From positions 62,001-126,000 of the forward strand of contig NZ_LRDB01000050.1 of assembly GCF_001592935.1 (NCBI RefSeq): DNA of 64,000 bases. Reading direction: 5' to 3'. The first letter of the stretch is position 1; each line of letters opens with the position of its first letter. Made by a program: the position numbers and the translations under genes. Below, piece by piece: positions 24,229 to 31,339 of this stretch. The notes under the pieces were generated by a model, which saw nothing but the letters and a program-made list of their open reading frames with translations, was not told where the DNA came from and did no database searches. The stretch is from Roseivirga echinicomitans (GTDB lineage: Bacteria > Bacteroidota > Bacteroidia > Cytophagales > Cyclobacteriaceae).

Positions 24229-24480
24229 ATGCTTACGCCTTTCGAAACAAAGATTCATGAATGCCTTATTAGCAAGCGGTATTCAAAAATCACCTATTTT
24301 AATGAGTATCAGGAGTTCCATTCTGTAGATGCTTTAATCAAAAGCATTGGCAATCATGAGGATAGCGACACTATTATTTTGAGTACTGGTGATGAAATTC
24401 GATTAGAAAAAGTGATCAGTATAAATGGACAATATGCTGAGAACTATAAGCATATCGAAGATTTCACCTGCGACTGTTAA
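24229..24480 (+). CDS. Small hypothetical protein
   Basis: An 83-aa soluble protein (about 9.5 kDa) with no signal peptide. It has helix-rich ends and a central segment TIILSTGDEIRLEKVISINGQ that looks like a small beta-barrel or SH3-like core, ending in an acidic CDC tail. The layout is faintly like Rho-binding antiterminator (Rof)-type proteins (a compact beta core with G-E-x-x-L-x-x-I), but I cannot assign it. It precedes the SulP gene by 99 bases, with a promoter and palindrome between them, so the two are probably separate units. Confidence 0.6.
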   Translation: MLTPFETKIHECLISKRYSKITYFNEYQEFHSVDALIKSIGNHEDSDTIILSTGDEIRLEKVISINGQYAENYKHIEDFTCDC

Positions 24481-24485
24481 TGCTG

Positions 24486-24501
24486 TGTAACCTATGTTAC
24501 A
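24486..24501. promoter_or_regulatory. CRP/FNR-like palindrome upstream of the SulP gene
   Basis: Perfect inverted repeat TGTAAC-CTAT-GTTACA, also readable as TGTAA-N6-TTACA, the half-site geometry of the CRP/FNR superfamily. Its centre is about 38-42 bases before the start site predicted from the -7 box at 24520, the position used for class II activation. Confidence 0.6.
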
Positions 24502-24519
24502 AAGGCAATTCATTTCTTT

Positions 24520-24537
24520 TAACTTTGGTTACCTTTG
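24520..24537 (+). promoter_or_regulatory. Two overlapping-range -7 elements before the SulP gene
   Basis: TAACTTTG (24520-24527) and TACCTTTG (24530-24537) both fit TAnnTTTG exactly. No TTTG lies at -33; the palindrome at 24486-24501 is there instead, consistent with activator-dependent transcription. Confidence 0.5.
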
Positions 24538-24579: not shown

Positions 24580-26322
24580 GTGATTAAAAGATTGTTCCCC
24601 ATTCTTAGTTGGCTTCCAAATTACCAGAAGCAAAACCTTAACGGTGATGTTTTTGCTGGTTTAGCAGTTGGTGTAATGCTGATTCCACAGGGAATGGCCT
24701 ATGCTATGATTGCAGGTTTACCGCCTGTTTATGGCCTTTATACCGCCATTTTTCCTCAACTCATTTATGCCATCATGGGCACTTCTCGCCAGCTGGCGGT
24801 TGGCCCTGTAGCCATGGACTCTTTATTGGTGGCTTCAGGCATCTCCATTTTAGCCACTGAAGGCACAGAAACCTACTTAGCCTTTGCCATACTTCTTGCT
24901 TTTTTTGTTGGGGCTTTGCAATTTATGTTGGGGGTTTTGAAAATGGGTTTTATTACCAATTTACTCTCCAAACCTGTCATTAGTGGGTTTACTTCTGCCG
25001 TTGCATTTATCATTGCGCTCAATCAATTGAAAGATTTAATAGGAGTGGAGTTGGTGAAGAGCAATAGGAGTCATGAAATCCTCATTTCAGCCTTCAATAA
25101 TATAGGCCAGACACACTTGATCACCTTGGCAGTGGGAGTGGCTGGTATTGTACTTATAAAGTCATTGAAGGGATGGAACAAAAGAATACCTGGGGCTTTT
25201 ATCGCATTGATAATAGGGATTGGAGCAGTCTATGGTTTAGGCCTTCAAAATATGGGAGTGAGTATTGTTCAGGACATTCCTTCTGGTTTGCCTCAGTTTG
25301 TTATTCCCGAAATCACTTTGGCCCATTTCAAAACATTAATTCCTCTCGCGGGTACTTTAGCTGTGATTTCCTTCATAGAAGCCTATTCTGTAGGAAAGGC
25401 CATGGAGGCAAAGGAAAGAACCTATAAGATTGTTCCAAATCAAGAGCTGATGGCCTTGGGCGCATCAAACATGTTTGGCTCATTTTTTCAAGCATTCCCG
25501 GCTACAGCAGGTTTTTCTCGTTCAGCAGTGAATTACGAATCAGGAGCTAAGACTCCTTTGGCAGGTATTATCAGTGCGGTGATCGTGACGCTCACATTAC
25601 TGTTTTTAACGCCTTTATTCTACTACCTGCCTAAAGCTATTTTGGCTTCCATTATTATGATTGCGGTAGTCAACCTAATTGAATATGCTTATTTAAAACA
25701 CCTCTGGCGCACGAGTAAAATGGAGTTTGCCCTTATGCTCATTACTTTCTTGGTGACCTTTAGTTTTGGTATGGTTGAAGGAATTGTTACTGGGGTGGCC
25801 TTGTCAATTTTACTCTTGCTTTTTAAAGCCGCTAATCCACATATGGCGGTTTTAGGAAGAATAAAAGGATTTACAGAATACCGTAACGAAAAACGGTTTA
25901 GCGACTTAGAATCTTGGGAACACCTGCTCATAGTTCGTGTGGATGCACCATTTGCGTTTGTGAATATTCAAACCATTAAAGAATGGGTGCTTAGCGAGAT
26001 TCAGAAAAGAGAAGGGAAACTAAAAAAGGTAATAATAGACGCTGGCCCAGTTTCATACATTGACGCCACAGGAGTGGATGGTATTCGAGACCTTATTCAC
26101 ACTTTAAAAGAGAAAGAAATCGAATTGATTTTTTCGGAAGTAATTGGGCCTGTTCGTGACGCTTTCCATAGAAATCAATTATTCAGTGAAAAGGCTTCGG
26201 AAGTGTTTTTTATGACTACTGATGAGGCTGTGAACTACTTTATAGTGGAAGATTCTAAAAATCACCATGCAAATTTTGCTGTTCAGGTGAACGAAAAGAG
26301 CAAGCAATTGTTAAAAAAGTAG
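24580..26322 (+). CDS. SulP-family inorganic anion transporter with STAS domain
   Basis: A 580-aa inner-membrane anion importer of the SLC26/SulP family. It begins with GTG at 24580 (MIKRLFPILSWLPNYQ), with the family's N-terminal signature GLAVGVMLIPQGMAYAMIAG (about 27-46), 12-14 membrane segments to about residue 430, and a cytoplasmic STAS domain (about 440-555, VIIDAGPVSYIDATGVDGI). Family members carry sulfate, bicarbonate or other anions; the neighbouring sulfur genes favour sulfate or a related oxyanion. An unusual C-terminal tail (HHANFAVQVNEKSKQLLKK) follows STAS. Only 37 bp separate it from the persulfide-dioxygenase-like gene. Confidence 0.92.
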   Translation: MIKRLFPILSWLPNYQKQNLNGDVFAGLAVGVMLIPQGMAYAMIAGLPPVYGLYTAIFPQLIYAIMGTSRQLAVGPVAMDSLLVASGISILATEGTETYLAFAILLAFFVGALQFMLGVLKMGFITNLLSKPVISGFTSAVAFIIALNQLKDLIGVELVKSNRSHEILISAFNNIGQTHLITLAVGVAGIVLIKSLKGWNKRIPGAFIALIIGIGAVYGLGLQNMGVSIVQDIPSGLPQFVIPEITLAHFKTLIPLAGTLAVISFIEAYSVGKAMEAKERTYKIVPNQELMALGASNMFGSFFQAFPATAGFSRSAVNYESGAKTPLAGIISAVIVTLTLLFLTPLFYYLPKAILASIIMIAVVNLIEYAYLKHLWRTSKMEFALMLITFLVTFSFGMVEGIVTGVALSILLLLFKAANPHMAVLGRIKGFTEYRNEKRFSDLESWEHLLIVRVDAPFAFVNIQTIKEWVLSEIQKREGKLKKVIIDAGPVSYIDATGVDGIRDLIHTLKEKEIELIFSEVIGPVRDAFHRNQLFSEKASEVFFMTTDEAVNYFIVEDSKNHHANFAVQVNEKSKQLLKK

Positions 26323-26336
26323 TGTTACTCGTAACA
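26323..26336. promoter_or_regulatory. Palindrome between the SulP and hydrolase genes
   Basis: Perfect 14-bp inverted repeat TGTTAC-TC-GTAACA, starting one base after the SulP stop and 24 bases before the next ATG. It shares the GTAAC/GTTAC half-site words of the palindrome at 24486 but with the opposite arm order and a shorter spacer. The two-base loop makes an RNA hairpin unlikely. Confidence 0.4.
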
Positions 26337-26359
26337 TCATAACTAGAAAATTAAAAGAG

Positions 26360-27772
26360 ATGAAAATAGATCAAATTTACACCGGATGCTTGGCTCAAGG
26401 AGCCTACTATATTGAAAGCAATGGAGAAGTGGCAATCATAGATCCGCTTCGAGAAACGCAAACATATATCGATAGAGCAGCTAAAGATGGCGCAAAGATT
26501 AAGTATGTTTTCGAAACACATTTCCATGCCGACTTTGTATCTGGCCATTTAGACCTTGCCAGCAAAACAGGTGCTACTATAATCTACGGACCAGGCGCAA
26601 CGACCAATTTCGAAATTCATGAGGCGAAAGACGGTGAGATTTTCGAATTGGGTAATGTAAAGTTCAAAGTGCTGCATACACCAGGCCACACACAAGAAAG
26701 CTCAAGCTATTTACTCCTTGATGAAAACGGGAAAGAAAAAGCCTTATTCAGTGGTGATACCCTATTTATTGGTGATGTTGGAAGACCCGATTTGGCCATT
26801 AAATCTGATTTAACGAAAGAGGATTTAGCCGGCATGTTATTCGATAGTCTTCGAAATAAAATTATGCCCTTACCAGACGATGTAATTGTTTATCCAGCAC
26901 ATGGCGCGGGCTCTGCCTGTGGTAAAAACATGAGCAAGGAGACTTCCGATACACTAGGTAATCAAAAGAAAGTGAATTATGCACTTCGTGCGAATATGAC
27001 GCGTGAAGAGTTTATAAAAGAAGTTACCACGGGTATTTTACCTCCGCCACAGTACTTTCAGAAAAATGCCATGTTAAACAAAACGGGAGCTTCTGGTTTA
27101 GATGAAATTCTCGAAAAGGGAAGTGTTCCTTTAGATGTAGAAACATTTGAAGCCATAGCAAACCATGAAGAAGCTTTGATTTTAGATACCCGTAAGCAAG
27201 GTGACTTCAAGGACGGTTTTATTCCCAACTCTATATTTATTGGTATCGATGGAAGTTTCGCCCCTTGGGTGGGAGCATTAATTACAGACTTAAAACAGCC
27301 TATTATTTTCTTGGCTGAAGAAGGCAGAGAAGAAGAAGTCGTGACACGATTATCTAGAGTAGGTTACGACAATACTTTGGGCTATCTGAAAGGCGGAATT
27401 GAGGCATGGAAGAAGGCAGGTAAAGAAATTGATACTATTGAATCTATTCCAGCTACTCAGTTAGCAGAAGAGTTTAAGTCTGGCGATTTGAATGTGCTTG
27501 ACGTAAGAAACCCTACTGAGTACTCTTCAGAGCATATTGATGGTGCCGAAAACGTGGCGCTTGATTACATTAATGAAAACATGGGTAAAATCAGCAAGGA
27601 CAAATCTTACCACATTCATTGTGCAGGAGGGTATCGTTCCATGATTTTCTCTTCAATACTGAAGGCAAGAGGTTTCGATAAGGTAATTGATGTAGCGGGA
27701 GGCTTTAAAGCTATCAGCGAAACTGATTTACCAGTAACAAATTTCGTTTGTCCTACGACACTTAATAAGTAA
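26360..27772 (+). CDS. Persulfide dioxygenase-like MBL hydrolase with two rhodanese domains
   Basis: A 470-aa cytoplasmic protein. The N-terminal metallo-beta-lactamase domain (about 1-240) has THFHADFVSGH (H54, H56, D58, H63), a later HTPGHT and SGDTLFIGDVGRPD, the pattern of ETHE1/BLH-type glutathione persulfide dioxygenases, which oxidise sulfane sulfur to sulfite. Two rhodanese domains follow: the first (about 255-355) has no cysteine at its loop (IIFLAEEGREEE) and is probably structural; the second (about 370-460) has the active Cys421 in HCAGGYRS and could move sulfur between persulfide and sulfite, giving thiosulfate. It sits at the head of a run of sulfur transport and oxidation genes. 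Confidence 0.92.
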   Translation: MKIDQIYTGCLAQGAYYIESNGEVAIIDPLRETQTYIDRAAKDGAKIKYVFETHFHADFVSGHLDLASKTGATIIYGPGATTNFEIHEAKDGEIFELGNVKFKVLHTPGHTQESSSYLLLDENGKEKALFSGDTLFIGDVGRPDLAIKSDLTKEDLAGMLFDSLRNKIMPLPDDVIVYPAHGAGSACGKNMSKETSDTLGNQKKVNYALRANMTREEFIKEVTTGILPPPQYFQKNAMLNKTGASGLDEILEKGSVPLDVETFEAIANHEEALILDTRKQGDFKDGFIPNSIFIGIDGSFAPWVGALITDLKQPIIFLAEEGREEEVVTRLSRVGYDNTLGYLKGGIEAWKKAGKEIDTIESIPATQLAEEFKSGDLNVLDVRNPTEYSSEHIDGAENVALDYINENMGKISKDKSYHIHCAGGYRSMIFSSILKARGFDKVIDVAGGFKAISETDLPVTNFVCPTTLNK

Positions 27773-27797
27773 CCCTTTAGAAAAAGGAAACTATTCT

Positions 27798-27847
27798 TCC
27801 AGCTACTTTTGGCCAACCTTGGTCTAAGAGTAGCTGGATTTATTTTA
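27798..27847 (+). terminator. Hairpin with T-rich tail inside the sulfur operon (possible attenuator)
   Basis: Perfect 10-bp stem TCCAGCTACT/AGTAGCTGGA (27798-27807, 27829-27838), with an inner GGCCAA/TTGGTC stem, followed by TTTATTTTA. It lies between the hydrolase and the first YeeE-type gene and could reduce, but not necessarily end, read-through. Confidence 0.6.
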
Positions 27848-27866
27848 TACTCATTTCAACTCTTTT

Positions 27867-28442
27867 ATGAACAATTTTATTGAGCTGATCAGCTCACCAT
27901 GGCCATGGTGGATTGCAGGTCCAGCTATTGCATTGTTAATGTTTGCCTTAATCTATTTCGGAAATAGTTTTGGTTTTTCTGCTAATTTCAGAACCATCTG
28001 CTCCATGTTTGGGGCGGGGAAATCTTGCGACTTTTTTGATTTTGATTGGAAAAAGCAGACTTGGAATCTAGTGTTTGCATTAGGTGCCATTCTTGGCGGA
28101 TTCATTGCCAGCCAATACTTGACATCTGGAGATGCCATTGCGCTTTCAGAAAATACCATTACCGAACTTGAAGGCTACGGTTTAGAAAACGTTGGGGCGG
28201 ATATGGTACCTATGTCCATCTTTAATTTTGAAGCACTGTTGACTTTAAAAGGTTTCGTATTTATAGTGTTAGGTGGCTTCTTTGTTGGCTTCGGAACTCG
28301 CTATGCAGGTGGTTGTACTTCTGGTCATGCTATCTCAGGCTTAAGCGATTTGCAGCCTGCTTCGCTAATCGCAGTCATAGGCTTCTTTATTGGAGGTCTT
28401 ACTATCACTTACTTTGTTCTTCCTTCAATATTAGCCCTTTAA
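27867..28442 (+). CDS. YeeE/YedE-family (TsuA-like) thiosulfate permease, larger subunit-like protein
   Basis: A 191-aa membrane protein with about five hydrophobic segments, corresponding to half of a full-length YeeE/TsuA. Conserved cysteine motifs are GAGKSCDFFDFDW (C50 region) and YAGGCTSGHAISG. In the E. coli/Spirochaeta YeeE (TsuA) transporter such inward cysteines relay thiosulfate through the membrane. Bacteroidota often split the transporter into two short genes, as here with the next gene 10 bp downstream. Thiosulfate specificity is inferred from the family and neighbours. Confidence 0.9.
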   Translation: MNNFIELISSPWPWWIAGPAIALLMFALIYFGNSFGFSANFRTICSMFGAGKSCDFFDFDWKKQTWNLVFALGAILGGFIASQYLTSGDAIALSENTITELEGYGLENVGADMVPMSIFNFEALLTLKGFVFIVLGGFFVGFGTRYAGGCTSGHAISGLSDLQPASLIAVIGFFIGGLTITYFVLPSILAL

Positions 28443-28452
28443 ACTACTGATA

Positions 28453-28866
28453 ATGAAATACTTTAAATACTTAGTTTTAGGAGTAGTATTCGGAATAACA
28501 TTAACGAAAGCTGAACTTATTTCATGGTACAGAATTTATGAAATGTTCCGCTTTCAATCTTTCCATATGTATGGCGTAATTGGTTCAGCGGTGGTGACGG
28601 GAATTATAATTACCCAAATAATCAAACGAACCAAAATGAAAGACGCTCAGGGAAAAACCGTTGTTATTGCTCCCAAGCAGTTCTCAATTTGGCGATATCT
28701 TCTAGGGGGAATCATATTCGGTTTTGGCTGGGCCTTAACGGGCGCTTGCCCAGGCCCAATGTTTATTTTGGCTGGTAATGGTGTGTTTGTTATTTTCGTG
28801 GCCATTGCATCGGGGCTATCTGGCACTTATGTTTACGGAAAAATAAGACATAAACTTCCACATTAG
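28453..28866 (+). CDS. YeeE/YedE-family (DUF6691) thiosulfate permease partner
   Basis: A 137-aa membrane protein with four hydrophobic segments and the motif GWALTGACPGPMFILAGNG, whose Cys matches the second cysteine site of full-length YeeE. It is the usual partner of the preceding YeeE gene, 10 bp upstream; the porin-like gene starts 5 bp downstream. The pair probably forms one thiosulfate channel-like transporter. Confidence 0.88.
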   Translation: MKYFKYLVLGVVFGITLTKAELISWYRIYEMFRFQSFHMYGVIGSAVVTGIIITQIIKRTKMKDAQGKTVVIAPKQFSIWRYLLGGIIFGFGWALTGACPGPMFILAGNGVFVIFVAIASGLSGTYVYGKIRHKLPH

Positions 28867-28871
28867 AAACC

Positions 28872-30221
28872 ATGAAACGAACTCGATCTCTATTCTTGAT
28901 CTGCTTTTTTATTCTTCCATTTATAGCTGTTTTGGCTCAAGAAGGAGAAAAAGAGCGTGGCTTTTGGTCCGCAGAGGTGACTACTCGTTATATGCAAACT
29001 TCCAACAAAGGAAGCCTAGAAGACTTCTCCATTTTGGCTTCTTATGGTAGAGTTGGCTACCATATTAAACTGCGTGATTGGCTTAAATTTGGTGTTTCAG
29101 GAAATGGACTGGTTCATTATGGAACGGGTGGTATTGATAAAAGAGATCAAACAACAGGCTCAGGGCCAATTTACGAGACTAACCTTTGGAATAGTAGATT
29201 GATGTCGGGATCAACAGAATTCAGTCTACCAGAGTTTTACCTCGACTTCAAATTCGATAGTCATTTAATAAGAGTAGGGAGGTTTATTGAAGATACACCC
29301 CTGATAAATGGTGAAGGCTGGCCATTTCCAAATGCCATCAAAGGGCTATGGTATAAGTACTCGTCTGTGGAAGGTTTTAATGCGGAAGCTGGTTTTATAG
29401 ACAGGATTTCTTCCCGGTTCACTGGTGAATTTCAGAATGTCGGAAACACATTGGGTGCTGGCGGCATTGGTGTGGGAACAGACGGCAATAGCAGCCAATA
29501 CCGAGATGTAACGGAGTCTGATTATATAGCCATCGTGAAATTGGGCTATCGCTTTTCTAGTGGATTGGATTTAGCTCTTTGGAATTATTACACCGACAAT
29601 ATTTCGAATACAATTTTTACAGAAGCTAAATTCGATTTAGGATCGGATAAGGATTGGCATATTTCTAGCCAGTTTATTTATCAAAGCAAAGTAGGAGACG
29701 GGGGAAATAATTCTGGGGTACTTCAATACAAAGCAGACGAATCTGCTAACGGTTTTGGATTCATGGTAAAGAAAGACATTTCGAAAAGTGCTGTATCTTT
29801 AGCCTTTACAAGGATTGGAGACGGAGGCCGACTGCTCTTACCTAGAGAATGGGGAAAAGAACCTTTCTATACTTTTCAGCGAAGAACTCGTGTTGAGGGA
29901 TTTAGTGATGTAACAGCCGTTGCTTTAAAATGGGAGAGCAACTATGATAAGGAAAACTATAAGTTGAGCATGTTTTCAAGTCTAGGTTATCACAGCTTAC
30001 CAGATCCTGCTGATGCATCTAAAAGCAAATATCAAGTGCCATCAACGGCACATTTAGATGGTTCAATTAAGTATAGTCCTAAAAATAAGCTCTTTGGTTT
30101 TTCAGCGGAGCTATACTTGGCAGGTCGATTTTTGGCCGGAGAAACGGTTTCAAACCCCGCTTATCTAATTAATCGTGCCGATTTCTTTCATTCTGACCTG
30201 ATTTTAAGCTACATTTTCTAA
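28872..30221 (+). CDS. Outer-membrane porin-like beta-barrel (OprD-type) in sulfur operon
   Basis: A 449-aa exported protein. Signal peptide to VLAQEGEKE, then alternating amphipathic strands throughout and a C-terminal aromatic strand ending SDLILSYIF, the hallmark of an outer-membrane barrel. Segments RVGRFIEDTPLINGEGWPF and REWGKEPFYTFQRRTRVEGFSD resemble OprD-family specific porins of Bacteroidota. There is no TonB box or plug. It is sandwiched between the YeeE-type pair (5 bp) and the TsdA-like cytochrome (9 bp), so it probably passes thiosulfate or tetrathionate across the outer membrane; that assignment rests on context. Confidence 0.75.
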   Translation: MKRTRSLFLICFFILPFIAVLAQEGEKERGFWSAEVTTRYMQTSNKGSLEDFSILASYGRVGYHIKLRDWLKFGVSGNGLVHYGTGGIDKRDQTTGSGPIYETNLWNSRLMSGSTEFSLPEFYLDFKFDSHLIRVGRFIEDTPLINGEGWPFPNAIKGLWYKYSSVEGFNAEAGFIDRISSRFTGEFQNVGNTLGAGGIGVGTDGNSSQYRDVTESDYIAIVKLGYRFSSGLDLALWNYYTDNISNTIFTEAKFDLGSDKDWHISSQFIYQSKVGDGGNNSGVLQYKADESANGFGFMVKKDISKSAVSLAFTRIGDGGRLLLPREWGKEPFYTFQRRTRVEGFSDVTAVALKWESNYDKENYKLSMFSSLGYHSLPDPADASKSKYQVPSTAHLDGSIKYSPKNKLFGFSAELYLAGRFLAGETVSNPAYLINRADFFHSDLILSYIF

Positions 30222-30230
30222 AATTAGAGA

Positions 30231-31256
30231 ATGAACCCTATTGAAGGAATAAAAGCGATTAGTAAAATCCTAAAGCTGATACTATCGGTTTTAGTAGTGC
30301 TTATTGTGTTTGTTTTCATGCTCCAATTTAACCCCGAAGCATTTCAATCTAAGAAAGTTGACCCTGCCAACTGGAAACCTCGTTCGGTACTTACTGACTT
30401 AGAAGGTGAAAGTCAGGCTCCTCTGATCAAGTTTGGTCATGAGCTGATTATTAAAACACCACAATTCATTGGCCCTATGTCAGCCGATGAACGTAAGCGC
30501 TTGGCAGGTAATAACCTCACCTGCCAAAACTGTCATTTAGAAGCAGGTACAAAACCAGGAGCTGGCTCTTTTGTTGGGGTGTTTAATCGTTTTCCCCAAT
30601 TCCGCGGGAGAGAAAATATCATAGGAACACTCGAGGAACGCATTAATGGTTGTATGCAACGCAGCATGAATGGCGATACTTTGCCAGAAATCAGCCTAGA
30701 AATGAAGGCCATAATTGCTTATATCAAATGGGTGAGTGAAGATGTTCCTGAGGAAAAAGTTGACATATATAAGGGGTTTGTTAAGGTTGAATTGCCCGAT
30801 GTAAAGGCTGATCTTTTGATTGGAAAATCTGTTTATGAGAAAACCTGTGTTAGCTGTCATGGCCCAGACGGACAAGGAGTGAGGCTTAGCGAAAACAGTC
30901 TGTATCAATATCCACCGCTGTGGGGGAGCGACACGTTTAATGATGGCGCAGGAATGCATCGAATCATTACCGCAGCAGAGTTCATTAAGGGAAATATGCC
31001 ATACTTGCAAGCCACTTGGGACAATCCAGTATTATCTGATGATGAGGCCTATCATGTGGCCGCTTATATCAACAGTTTCGATCGACCTGAAAAGACAAAT
31101 AAGGAACTGGATTTTCCTGATAAAAAACTCAAGCCCGTTTCTACGCCTTATGGGCCATGGGCGGATACTTTTTCTGCAGAACAACATAAATACGGTCCTT
31201 TTCAGCCTATAATGGCTTATTACGAAAAGGAATTCGGCATGAAGAAATCGAAATAG
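30231..31256 (+). CDS. tsdA: Membrane-anchored diheme cytochrome c, thiosulfate dehydrogenase (TsdA)-like
   Basis: A 341-aa protein anchored by an N-terminal membrane helix (about 15-37) and otherwise periplasmic. Two CxxCH haem sites are present: CQNCH at 98-102 and CVSCH at 206-210. Between them is the TsdA-type segment ERINGCMQRSMNGD, whose Cys141 corresponds to the unusual axial haem ligand of TsdA active sites. HLEAGTKPGAGSFVG and the later GNMPYLQATW, with a Met ligand for the second haem, also fit. TsdA couples two thiosulfates to tetrathionate with release of two electrons. Last gene of the sulfur operon. Homology to SoxA-like or other diheme cytochromes is the main alternative. Confidence 0.85.
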   Translation: MNPIEGIKAISKILKLILSVLVVLIVFVFMLQFNPEAFQSKKVDPANWKPRSVLTDLEGESQAPLIKFGHELIIKTPQFIGPMSADERKRLAGNNLTCQNCHLEAGTKPGAGSFVGVFNRFPQFRGRENIIGTLEERINGCMQRSMNGDTLPEISLEMKAIIAYIKWVSEDVPEEKVDIYKGFVKVELPDVKADLLIGKSVYEKTCVSCHGPDGQGVRLSENSLYQYPPLWGSDTFNDGAGMHRIITAAEFIKGNMPYLQATWDNPVLSDDEAYHVAAYINSFDRPEKTNKELDFPDKKLKPVSTPYGPWADTFSAEQHKYGPFQPIMAYYEKEFGMKKSK

Positions 31257-31339
31257 TAGGCTAGATTCTTTAGCCTACAATGGGTTTTGGCTTTGTGTAT
31301 AATCTAAATCTGTATAGCTTTAGGAAACAACCTTAAACC

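Follow-up and report, generated by a model that had tools for sequence, protein, structure and literature searches.

A conserved Roseivirga gene block joins a CstB-type dioxygenase, a split YeeE pair and TsdA to an OprD-type outer-membrane channel

Several bacterial systems that oxidise or transport sulfane sulfur have been described, and their parts provide the background for the locus considered here. The cst system converts sulfide to thiosulfate (PMC5480029; citations are by PubMed Central number and refer to excerpts of the papers), Blh makes sulfite (PMC5823870), and type III persulfide dioxygenases in Bacteroidota have already been published (PMC12345210). YeeE/TsuA is a known thiosulfate importer (PMC11073785), and the split pair YedE1E2/PmpAB sped the import, not the export, of zero-valent sulfur, with both halves needed, a property that was not seen for the homologue YedE3, which is probably of the undivided type (PMC10812762). 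PmpA and PmpB each correspond to one half of YeeE (PMC11582611), and a yeeE-yedE-pdo2 operon has been described in Acinetobacter (PMC7315123). In Erythrobacter, roles for TsdA and SoxB in feeding sulfur back from tetrathionate were proposed from mutants (PMC7608252). The passage of thiosulfate, tetrathionate and polysulfide across the outer membrane is a little-known step in sulfur oxidation; for Campylobacterota, OprD-like porins for sulfur uptake have been proposed from expression but not shown (PMC10045233). Here we describe a block of six genes at positions 24580-31256 of a 64,000-nucleotide (64 kb) stretch of Roseivirga echinicomitans DNA (contig NZ_LRDB01000050.1; the whole stretch is called the window), in which a CstB-type dioxygenase, a split YeeE pair, an OprD-type channel and TsdA lie side by side.

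All six open reading frames (ORFs) are on the + strand, in the order SulP, CstB-type dioxygenase-rhodanese, YeeE half 1 (YeeE1), YeeE half 2 (YeeE2), OprD-type barrel and TsdA. The host genome (G000; genomes and loci are numbered with G and L) is Roseivirga-like and 4.18 Mb in size, and its TsdA is 91-92% identical to those of R. ehrenbergii and R. seohaensis. A first-pass annotation made from the window's sequence had placed the six ORFs at these coordinates, assigned them to these families and called each family known, all of which stands, and its observations on the locus are in part confirmed; its view of the combination as unusual gives way, because similar sets recur across the class, and its interpretation is supported in part. 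On balance, and with modest confidence, we read the block as the Roseivirga version, in compact form, of a module for sulfane-sulfur oxidation found repeatedly across the class.

TsdA was found in 18 of 19 genomes of the genus, the sole miss being an 80% complete assembly. Loci were fetched from 16 of the 17 TsdA-positive genomes besides G000, leaving out G010, in which TsdA is split over contig ends. In the relatives, genes were called by a simple script that takes the longest ORF, and the labels come from profiles made for this study from seed sequences; loci cut by contig ends can give false absences. All 16 loci share with the window the order SulP>CstB>YeeE1>YeeE2>(barrel)>TsdA, 13 of them with the barrel, so that a chance neighbourhood is rejected. 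Three loci (L114, L116 and L118) carry a second CstB beyond TsdA, and an opposite-strand gene lies between barrel and TsdA in L034/L114 (at 5690-6850 in L034, with a PF13557 match).

Linkage of the channel to the other genes extends well beyond the genus. Across an even sample of the class (295 genomes), matches to the barrel (E <= 1e-20), TsdA (E <= 1e-30) and YeeE1 (E <= 1e-25) occurred in 45, 61 and 119 genomes, respectively. Barrel and TsdA co-occur in 32 genomes, against 9.3 expected, and lie within 10 kb of each other in 31 of these 32 (14 families, the window's included), which bears out the earlier suggestion that an outer-membrane channel is tied to the block. Barrel and YeeE1 co-occur in 39 genomes (18.2 expected; 35 within 10 kb), and TsdA and YeeE1 in 43 (24.6 expected; 35 within 10 kb). 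The 33 linked barrel-TsdA pairs comprise 29 in which TsdA precedes the barrel, 3 in which the barrel comes first and 1 in opposite directions, and 14 of the pairs are <400 bp apart; the barrel-first order is confined to the window and to the second barrels of G152 and G322.

The surroundings of the barrel were surveyed at all 49 barrel loci of the 45 class genomes, the window being one and some loci being cut by contig ends. Within 8 kb of the barrel lie full-length CstB at 36 loci, YeeE1 at 33, TsdA at 32, YeeE2 at 28, TauE at 24 and a SoxB-like gene at 20, and in L202, L207 and L233 the channel stands between the two YeeE halves. Among the 13 barrel genomes without TsdA, 8 have YeeE1, and in L190, L191, L203, L207 and L208 the barrel is close to CstB and TauE. 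Because TsdA-less barrels adjoin CstB and TauE or keep YeeE1, the barrel looks like part of a sulfur cluster, not of TsdA alone. Three genomes, G152, G322 and G184 (L201, L225, and L217 with L218), have two barrels each, one with CstB and a YeeE pair and one beside TsdA, an arrangement that hints at split channel roles.

The barrel itself (28872..30221, +) is assigned to the OprD/Occ-type 18-strand outer-membrane channels by its AlphaFold model and Protein Data Bank (PDB) structure matches, and is the single match in the genome. Its PF03573 score, 24.0 bits, narrowly misses the cut-off of 25, and two relatives score 39.2 and 27.1. Its AlphaFold model (predicted local distance difference test, pLDDT, 85.6) has 18 strands, with 5dl8 as the top PDB match (E 5.8e-22; template-modelling score TMt 0.77); the four best PDB matches are all Occ/OprD-family porins, and a chitoporin ranks fifth.

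The last gene (30231..31256, +) encodes TsdA, a dihaem thiosulfate dehydrogenase/tetrathionate reductase, identified by matches to solved structures, alignment and Foldseek, with a hydrophobic N-terminal stretch at residues 13-31. It matches solved TsdA structures at E 7e-40, the best PDB match being 4wqc, the K208N variant of Allochromatium vinosum TsdA; the AlphaFold model is of modest confidence (pLDDT 74.1), and its nine best Foldseek matches are all TsdA (4v2k, TMt 0.76). Two CxxCH haem motifs (C98-C101-H102 and C206-C209-H210) are invariant in 12 aligned rows, window included. So are C141, which by alignment with solved TsdA sequences is the axial cysteine ligand of haem 1, M256, by alignment the axial methionine ligand of haem 2, and K253 and N255. 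A cytochrome other than TsdA is rejected by the structure matches, invariant ligands and Foldseek results, and the earlier call of a genuine TsdA is upheld. Of the structural check proposed with that call, the fold proved to be that of TsdA, with Cys141 present and invariant, but the model holds no haem, so that ligation is argued from the alignment. The enzyme would interconvert thiosulfate and tetrathionate, and its direction in this host is weighed below. A search of plasmid records gave TsdA-like matches in 54, all at <60% identity.

Of the 80 named TsdA loci (L031-L110, mostly flavobacterial), 45 encode, no more than 2.5 kb from TsdA, a protein of ~225 aa whose N terminus resembles a twin-arginine signal; a DsrE-like protein often comes next. 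A C-x-C motif (FCVCNLA) is present in 45 of 47 labelled copies, and the one copy searched against Pfam and NCBIfam (L092) had no match in either. The protein is a candidate for a new periplasmic partner of TsdA.

The CstB-type (type III) persulfide dioxygenase (26360..27772, +), a chain of about 470 aa, consists of a metallo-beta-lactamase (MBL) domain and two rhodanese stretches, and matches 3tp9 and 3r2u nearly end to end, the latter being, we take it, the CstB structure. Residues H54, H56, D58, H110, D133, C187 and C421 are present and invariant in 11 rows, with roles that we assign on their presumed counterparts in ETHE1 and CstB. The first rhodanese loop reads LAEEGREE and lacks cysteine; C421 lies in the loop of the second. 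The enzyme had been described as a dioxygenase with an active-type rhodanese, and the dioxygenase ligands and Cys421 agree with this. At 57.6 bits against a cut-off of 625, it is not a member of the Blh family NF040641.

The two YeeE genes that follow form a split pair, as the first-pass annotation had it, since both match PF04143 (54 and 38 bits; cut-off 27). Half 1 (27867..28442, +; 191 aa) resembles the C-terminal half, and half 2 (28453..28866, +; 137 aa), which also matches PF20398 (DUF6691), the N-terminal half. Between them the two map to profile positions 12-105 and 251-309, the arrangement that defines the split pairs PmpAB and YedE1E2. C45 and C150 of half 1 and C99 of half 2, within GACPGP, are invariant in 11 rows. 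Half 1 is longer than the ~130 aa given for PmpA (PMC11582611), and its C45 is extra beyond C99 and C150. In G277 a YeeE1-like stretch lies within an open frame of ~700 aa (L189, 12448-14535), found twice in that genome and possibly a YeeE1 fusion.

At the head of the block is a SulP-type anion carrier with a STAS domain (24580..26322, +; PF00916, E 3e-112; TIGR00815, 478 bits, cut-off 380). Within 5 kb of full-length CstB, SulP without TauE is the pattern at 17 of 17 genus loci, and of 41 other loci 25 have TauE, 1 has SulP (L196, of another family), 15 have neither and none has both. Because SulP and TauE replace each other beside CstB, SulP may do the work of the TauE exporter, a substitution that gene neighbourhoods suggest. 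Four TauE genes are found elsewhere in G000.

Upstream of SulP lies an operator-like dyad, GTAAC-CTAT-GTTAC (24487..24500, unstranded), which is the only exact match to GTAAC-N4-GTTAC in the window, against 0.02 expected. A second dyad, TTAACTTTGGTTAC (24519..24532, unstranded), has one mismatch, and the window holds 6 such one-mismatch sites against 1.27 expected; within it, TAACTTTG fits what we take to be the Bacteroidota -7 promoter box. Several genus loci carry GTAACTTTGGTTAC before SulP. Before CstB there is a variant palindrome, TGTTACTCGTAACA (26323..26336, unstranded), and the standard dyad occurs within 300 bases of that place in 13 of the 16 other genus loci. In 369 kb from 17 genus loci, window included, there are 28 dyad sites against 0.2 expected, all upstream of SulP (12 sites, in 12 of 17 loci) or of copies of CstB (16). 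In 60 class loci (1.02 Mb) there are 21 sites, in 14 of the loci, against 0.4 expected; they precede CstB (10), SoxB-like genes (2), DsrE (2), TauE (1), an MBL/rhodanese gene (1) and unlabelled genes (2); the other 3 have no called start within 350 bases, two of them lying inside a called TauE frame. With a different spacing the count is no higher than 1 site in the genus and 5 in the class, and of the 60 letter orders compared, all but this one give at most 3 and 5. Window expectations come from 100 shuffles, and the Markov expectations for the genus and class from 5 simulations.

The form GTA-N8-TAC is that of NtcA sites, and because the dyad resembles it, its geometry fits a Crp-family protein. 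Across all loci 17 Crp-type genes were labelled, 10 of the 49 barrel loci have one within 8 kb, and the proteins carry C-x5-C-C (16/16, 14/17 and 11/17 at the three positions). No Crp-type gene was labelled in the window, to which the search of G000 was limited. These features suggest that a Crp-type protein may bind the dyad. We propose, tentatively, a class-wide sulfane-sulfur regulon of Bacteroidota in which a C-x5-C-C Crp-type regulator senses persulfide and acts on GTAAC-N4-GTTAC, and whose module includes a dedicated OprD-type channel for sulfur anions.

The first-pass annotation had placed the six genes in one operon with mostly 5-10 bp gaps. The gaps are 37, 94, 10, 5 and 9 bp in the 5' to 3' direction, so that the description suits the last three and not the first two, and the single operon is doubtful, as a hairpin and separate dyads favour two or three units. 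The 94-bp gap between CstB and YeeE1 carries a strong terminator-like hairpin (27798..27838, +; -30.7 kcal/mol, z -5.5, beating 200 of 200 shuffles) with a T-rich stretch 3' of it, which makes a single SulP-to-TsdA transcript doubtful in this species, and a secure six-gene transcript is rejected. At the same position, hairpins of -22 to -26 kcal/mol occur in L111, L112 and L113, and the gaps of eight other genus loci fold at -16 to -52 kcal/mol, all as folding energies without shuffles. In L114, L118, L122, L124 and L126 the gap is only 14-39 bp and without a strong hairpin, and there is therefore a better case for one transcript there. The apparent units in this species are YeeE1-YeeE2-barrel-TsdA on the one hand and, on the other, SulP and CstB, either together or apart. 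A second terminator-like hairpin, with a 10-pair stem, follows TsdA (31256..31278, +); by itself this match is weak, because the scan gave 7 such sites against 7.4 expected. A sigma-70 promoter scan of the window gave 15 sites against 21 expected, with no excess. Just 5' of the SulP dyad is an ORF of 83 aa (24229-24480), 61-80% conserved in L031-L033 and without a Pfam or NCBIfam match, which presumably resembles Rho-binding antiterminators.

From the families, conserved residues, gene order, linkage and dyads we infer a route in which the block would serve the import and oxidation of sulfane sulfur, because the published split pair imports zero-valent sulfur, cst makes thiosulfate and Blh makes sulfite. 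The OprD-type channel would pass sulfur anions (polysulfide, thiosulfate, tetrathionate) across the outer membrane, and the split YeeE pair would carry sulfane sulfur from periplasm to cytoplasm along its cysteines. There, the rhodanese of CstB would load sulfur on a low-molecular-weight thiol for CstB to oxidise to sulfite, which with further sulfane sulfur could give thiosulfate, and SulP, in place of the TauE exporter of relatives, may move the resulting anion out of the cytoplasm. TsdA, probably membrane-anchored on the periplasmic side of the inner membrane, would turn two thiosulfates into tetrathionate and pass electrons to the respiratory chain, and a regulator binding GTAAC-N4-GTTAC would switch SulP and CstB. 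Relatives may have a return path for sulfane sulfur from tetrathionate, served by a SoxB-like hydrolase and DsrE proteins.

SoxB-like genes of the 5'-nucleotidase family lie near TsdA in L193, L194, L195, L197-L200, L209 and L227-L232; two of the proteins (L193 and L199) score 242 and 268 bits against a SoxB cut-off of 550 and would belong to a divergent SoxB-like group. A SoxB-like query gave no match in 19 genus genomes (E <= 1e-15) in a search without a positive control, although elsewhere a profile built on the same seed finds a SoxB-like gene at 20 barrel loci; the empty genus search shows nothing by itself, because no known positive genome was included. Three DsrE genes lie elsewhere in G000. 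A sulfide:quinone oxidoreductase (SQR) as a member of the window block was rejected: the SQR-like gene of Marivirga (L045) has a close counterpart in 4 of 13 genus genomes searched, G000 not among them. That query is nearest to type III SQR but scores 252.7 bits against an NCBIfam cut-off of 525.

A number of observations weigh against this reading of the block. CstB is so common in the class (229 of 295 genomes, E <= 1e-100) that its nearness to the channel weighs less, and the naive hypergeometric P of 5e-16 for co-occurrence of barrel and TsdA belongs to P values that ignore genome kinship. The association is also incomplete: the barrel is missing from 29 of 61 TsdA genomes and TsdA from 13 of 45 barrel genomes, 4 of 49 barrel loci (L205, L206, L211 and L226) have none of CstB, YeeE, TsdA, TauE, SoxB-like or SQR-like genes nearby, 3 of the 16 genus loci (L123-L125) are without the channel, and 46 of 60 class loci are without an exact dyad. 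SulP carriers are mostly importers or exchangers. No close SQR that could supply sulfane sulfur was found in G000 (best E 3.5e-8, other SQR types not being searched). In Hyphomicrobium, pmpA and pmpB showed no thiosulfate response and no evidence for a part in sulfur oxidation (PMC11582611), because of which the role of split pairs is not to be carried over blindly. Finally, K253, N255 and M256 of TsdA match K252, N254 and M255 of the Campylobacter jejuni enzyme, a likeness to a working reductase.

The first-pass annotation let thiosulfate pass the barrel and then the YeeE pair into the cell, with partial oxidation by TsdA and with sulfane sulfur handled by the CstB-type enzyme, a pathway that seems to us unlikely. 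External thiosulfate is a plausible substrate, given the lack of a close SQR in G000 and of a SoxB-like match in the 19 genus genomes (in that uncontrolled search), and the three invariant cysteines across the YeeE pair equal in number those of TsuA and SoxT proteins (PMC11582611). The import step is nevertheless doubtful, as the characterised split pair imports zero-valent sulfur (PMC10812762) and none of the 19 genus genomes has a match to TusA, the family to which the TsuA partner YeeD belongs, in a search that was positive for Escherichia coli and 10 other controls. Furthermore, the two chains score 32.7 and 20.5 bits against the NCBIfam TsuA profile NF052577, with a cut-off of 400, and TsuA is a single chain of 330-350 aa.

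The other half of that pathway, oxidation by TsdA, is made doubtful by the haem-2 residues just named, and it is these that favour a reverse flow, in which tetrathionate would enter by the channel and be reduced to thiosulfate, to take up electrons or to supply sulfur, with the rest of the block disposing of sulfur. C. jejuni TsdA serves as a tetrathionate reductase and is biased to reduction, and A. vinosum TsdA has a lysine at the place equivalent to N255; in the study of the C. jejuni enzyme, however, exchanges at these residues failed to move the bias in the way predicted from sequences (PMC5146829). The SQR-like, SoxB-like and CstB neighbours in relatives are of oxidative families, and a reverse flow strikes us as improbable. 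CstB-type enzymes, moreover, use oxygen. Still less probable, in our estimate, is a block for detoxification only, clearing persulfide stress like the cst and bigR operons, with channel and TsdA merely disposing of thiosulfate. The occurrence of CstB with TauE in 25 of the 41 other loci parallels the tauE-cstA-cstB-sqr operon of Staphylococcus aureus (PMC5480029), and the bigR operon pairs Blh with a TauE-like transporter (PMC5823870). Detoxification would differ from sulfane-sulfur oxidation in purpose, not in steps, and the conserved TsdA and SoxB-like genes point to energy use.

With sulfur genes nearby at 45 of its 49 loci in 45 genomes, this one channel lineage points to a protein to test for passage of the outer membrane. 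The dyad is an entry point to the way in which sulfur may be sensed by these heterotrophs, and genomes can be scanned with it for the proposed regulon. A split YeeE pair should not be taken for a thiosulfate importer without caution. Among open-licence PubMed Central papers, our searches turned up no account of the dyad, of the cluster as it recurs across the class or of the linkage shown by the channel, no proven counterpart of a dedicated OprD-type outer-membrane channel for sulfur anions and, by title, no paper on Roseivirga and thiosulfate.

Set beside the described systems, the block shares something with each. With the cst operon of S. aureus (TauE, CstA, CstB and SQR, with the repressor CstR) it has in common a CstB-type enzyme beside an anion carrier, under a switch. 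The excerpt on cst lists no YeeE pair, channel or TsdA (PMC5480029), and the Roseivirga block has SulP for TauE, no SQR and another operator-like site. The pmpAB/yedE1E2-pdo operons of Serratia, Acinetobacter and Agrobacterium likewise set a persulfide dioxygenase beside a split YeeE pair (PMC7315123, PMC10812762), but the dioxygenases are of other types, the regulator in Acinetobacter is an ArsR-type BigR, and the excerpts report neither TsdA nor an outer-membrane channel. The TsdA-SoxB-SdoAB thiosulfate pathway of Erythrobacter flavus similarly has TsdA with a downstream sulfur dioxygenase; it includes SoxB, in contrast to the Roseivirga genus with its empty SoxB-like search (without positive control), and genomes with both tsdA and soxB homologues are reported in Bacteroidetes among others (PMC7608252). 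The SoxT system of Hyphomicrobium shares YeeE-type transport serving sulfur oxidation in a TsdA-bearing organism, with a single-chain SoxT and Sox and sHdr enzymes (PMC11582611) where Roseivirga has a split pair and CstB. Lastly, the window barrel has the 18 strands of the OprD/Occ porins, from which it differs in its 10-14% identity and in belonging to a lineage that stands beside sulfur genes.

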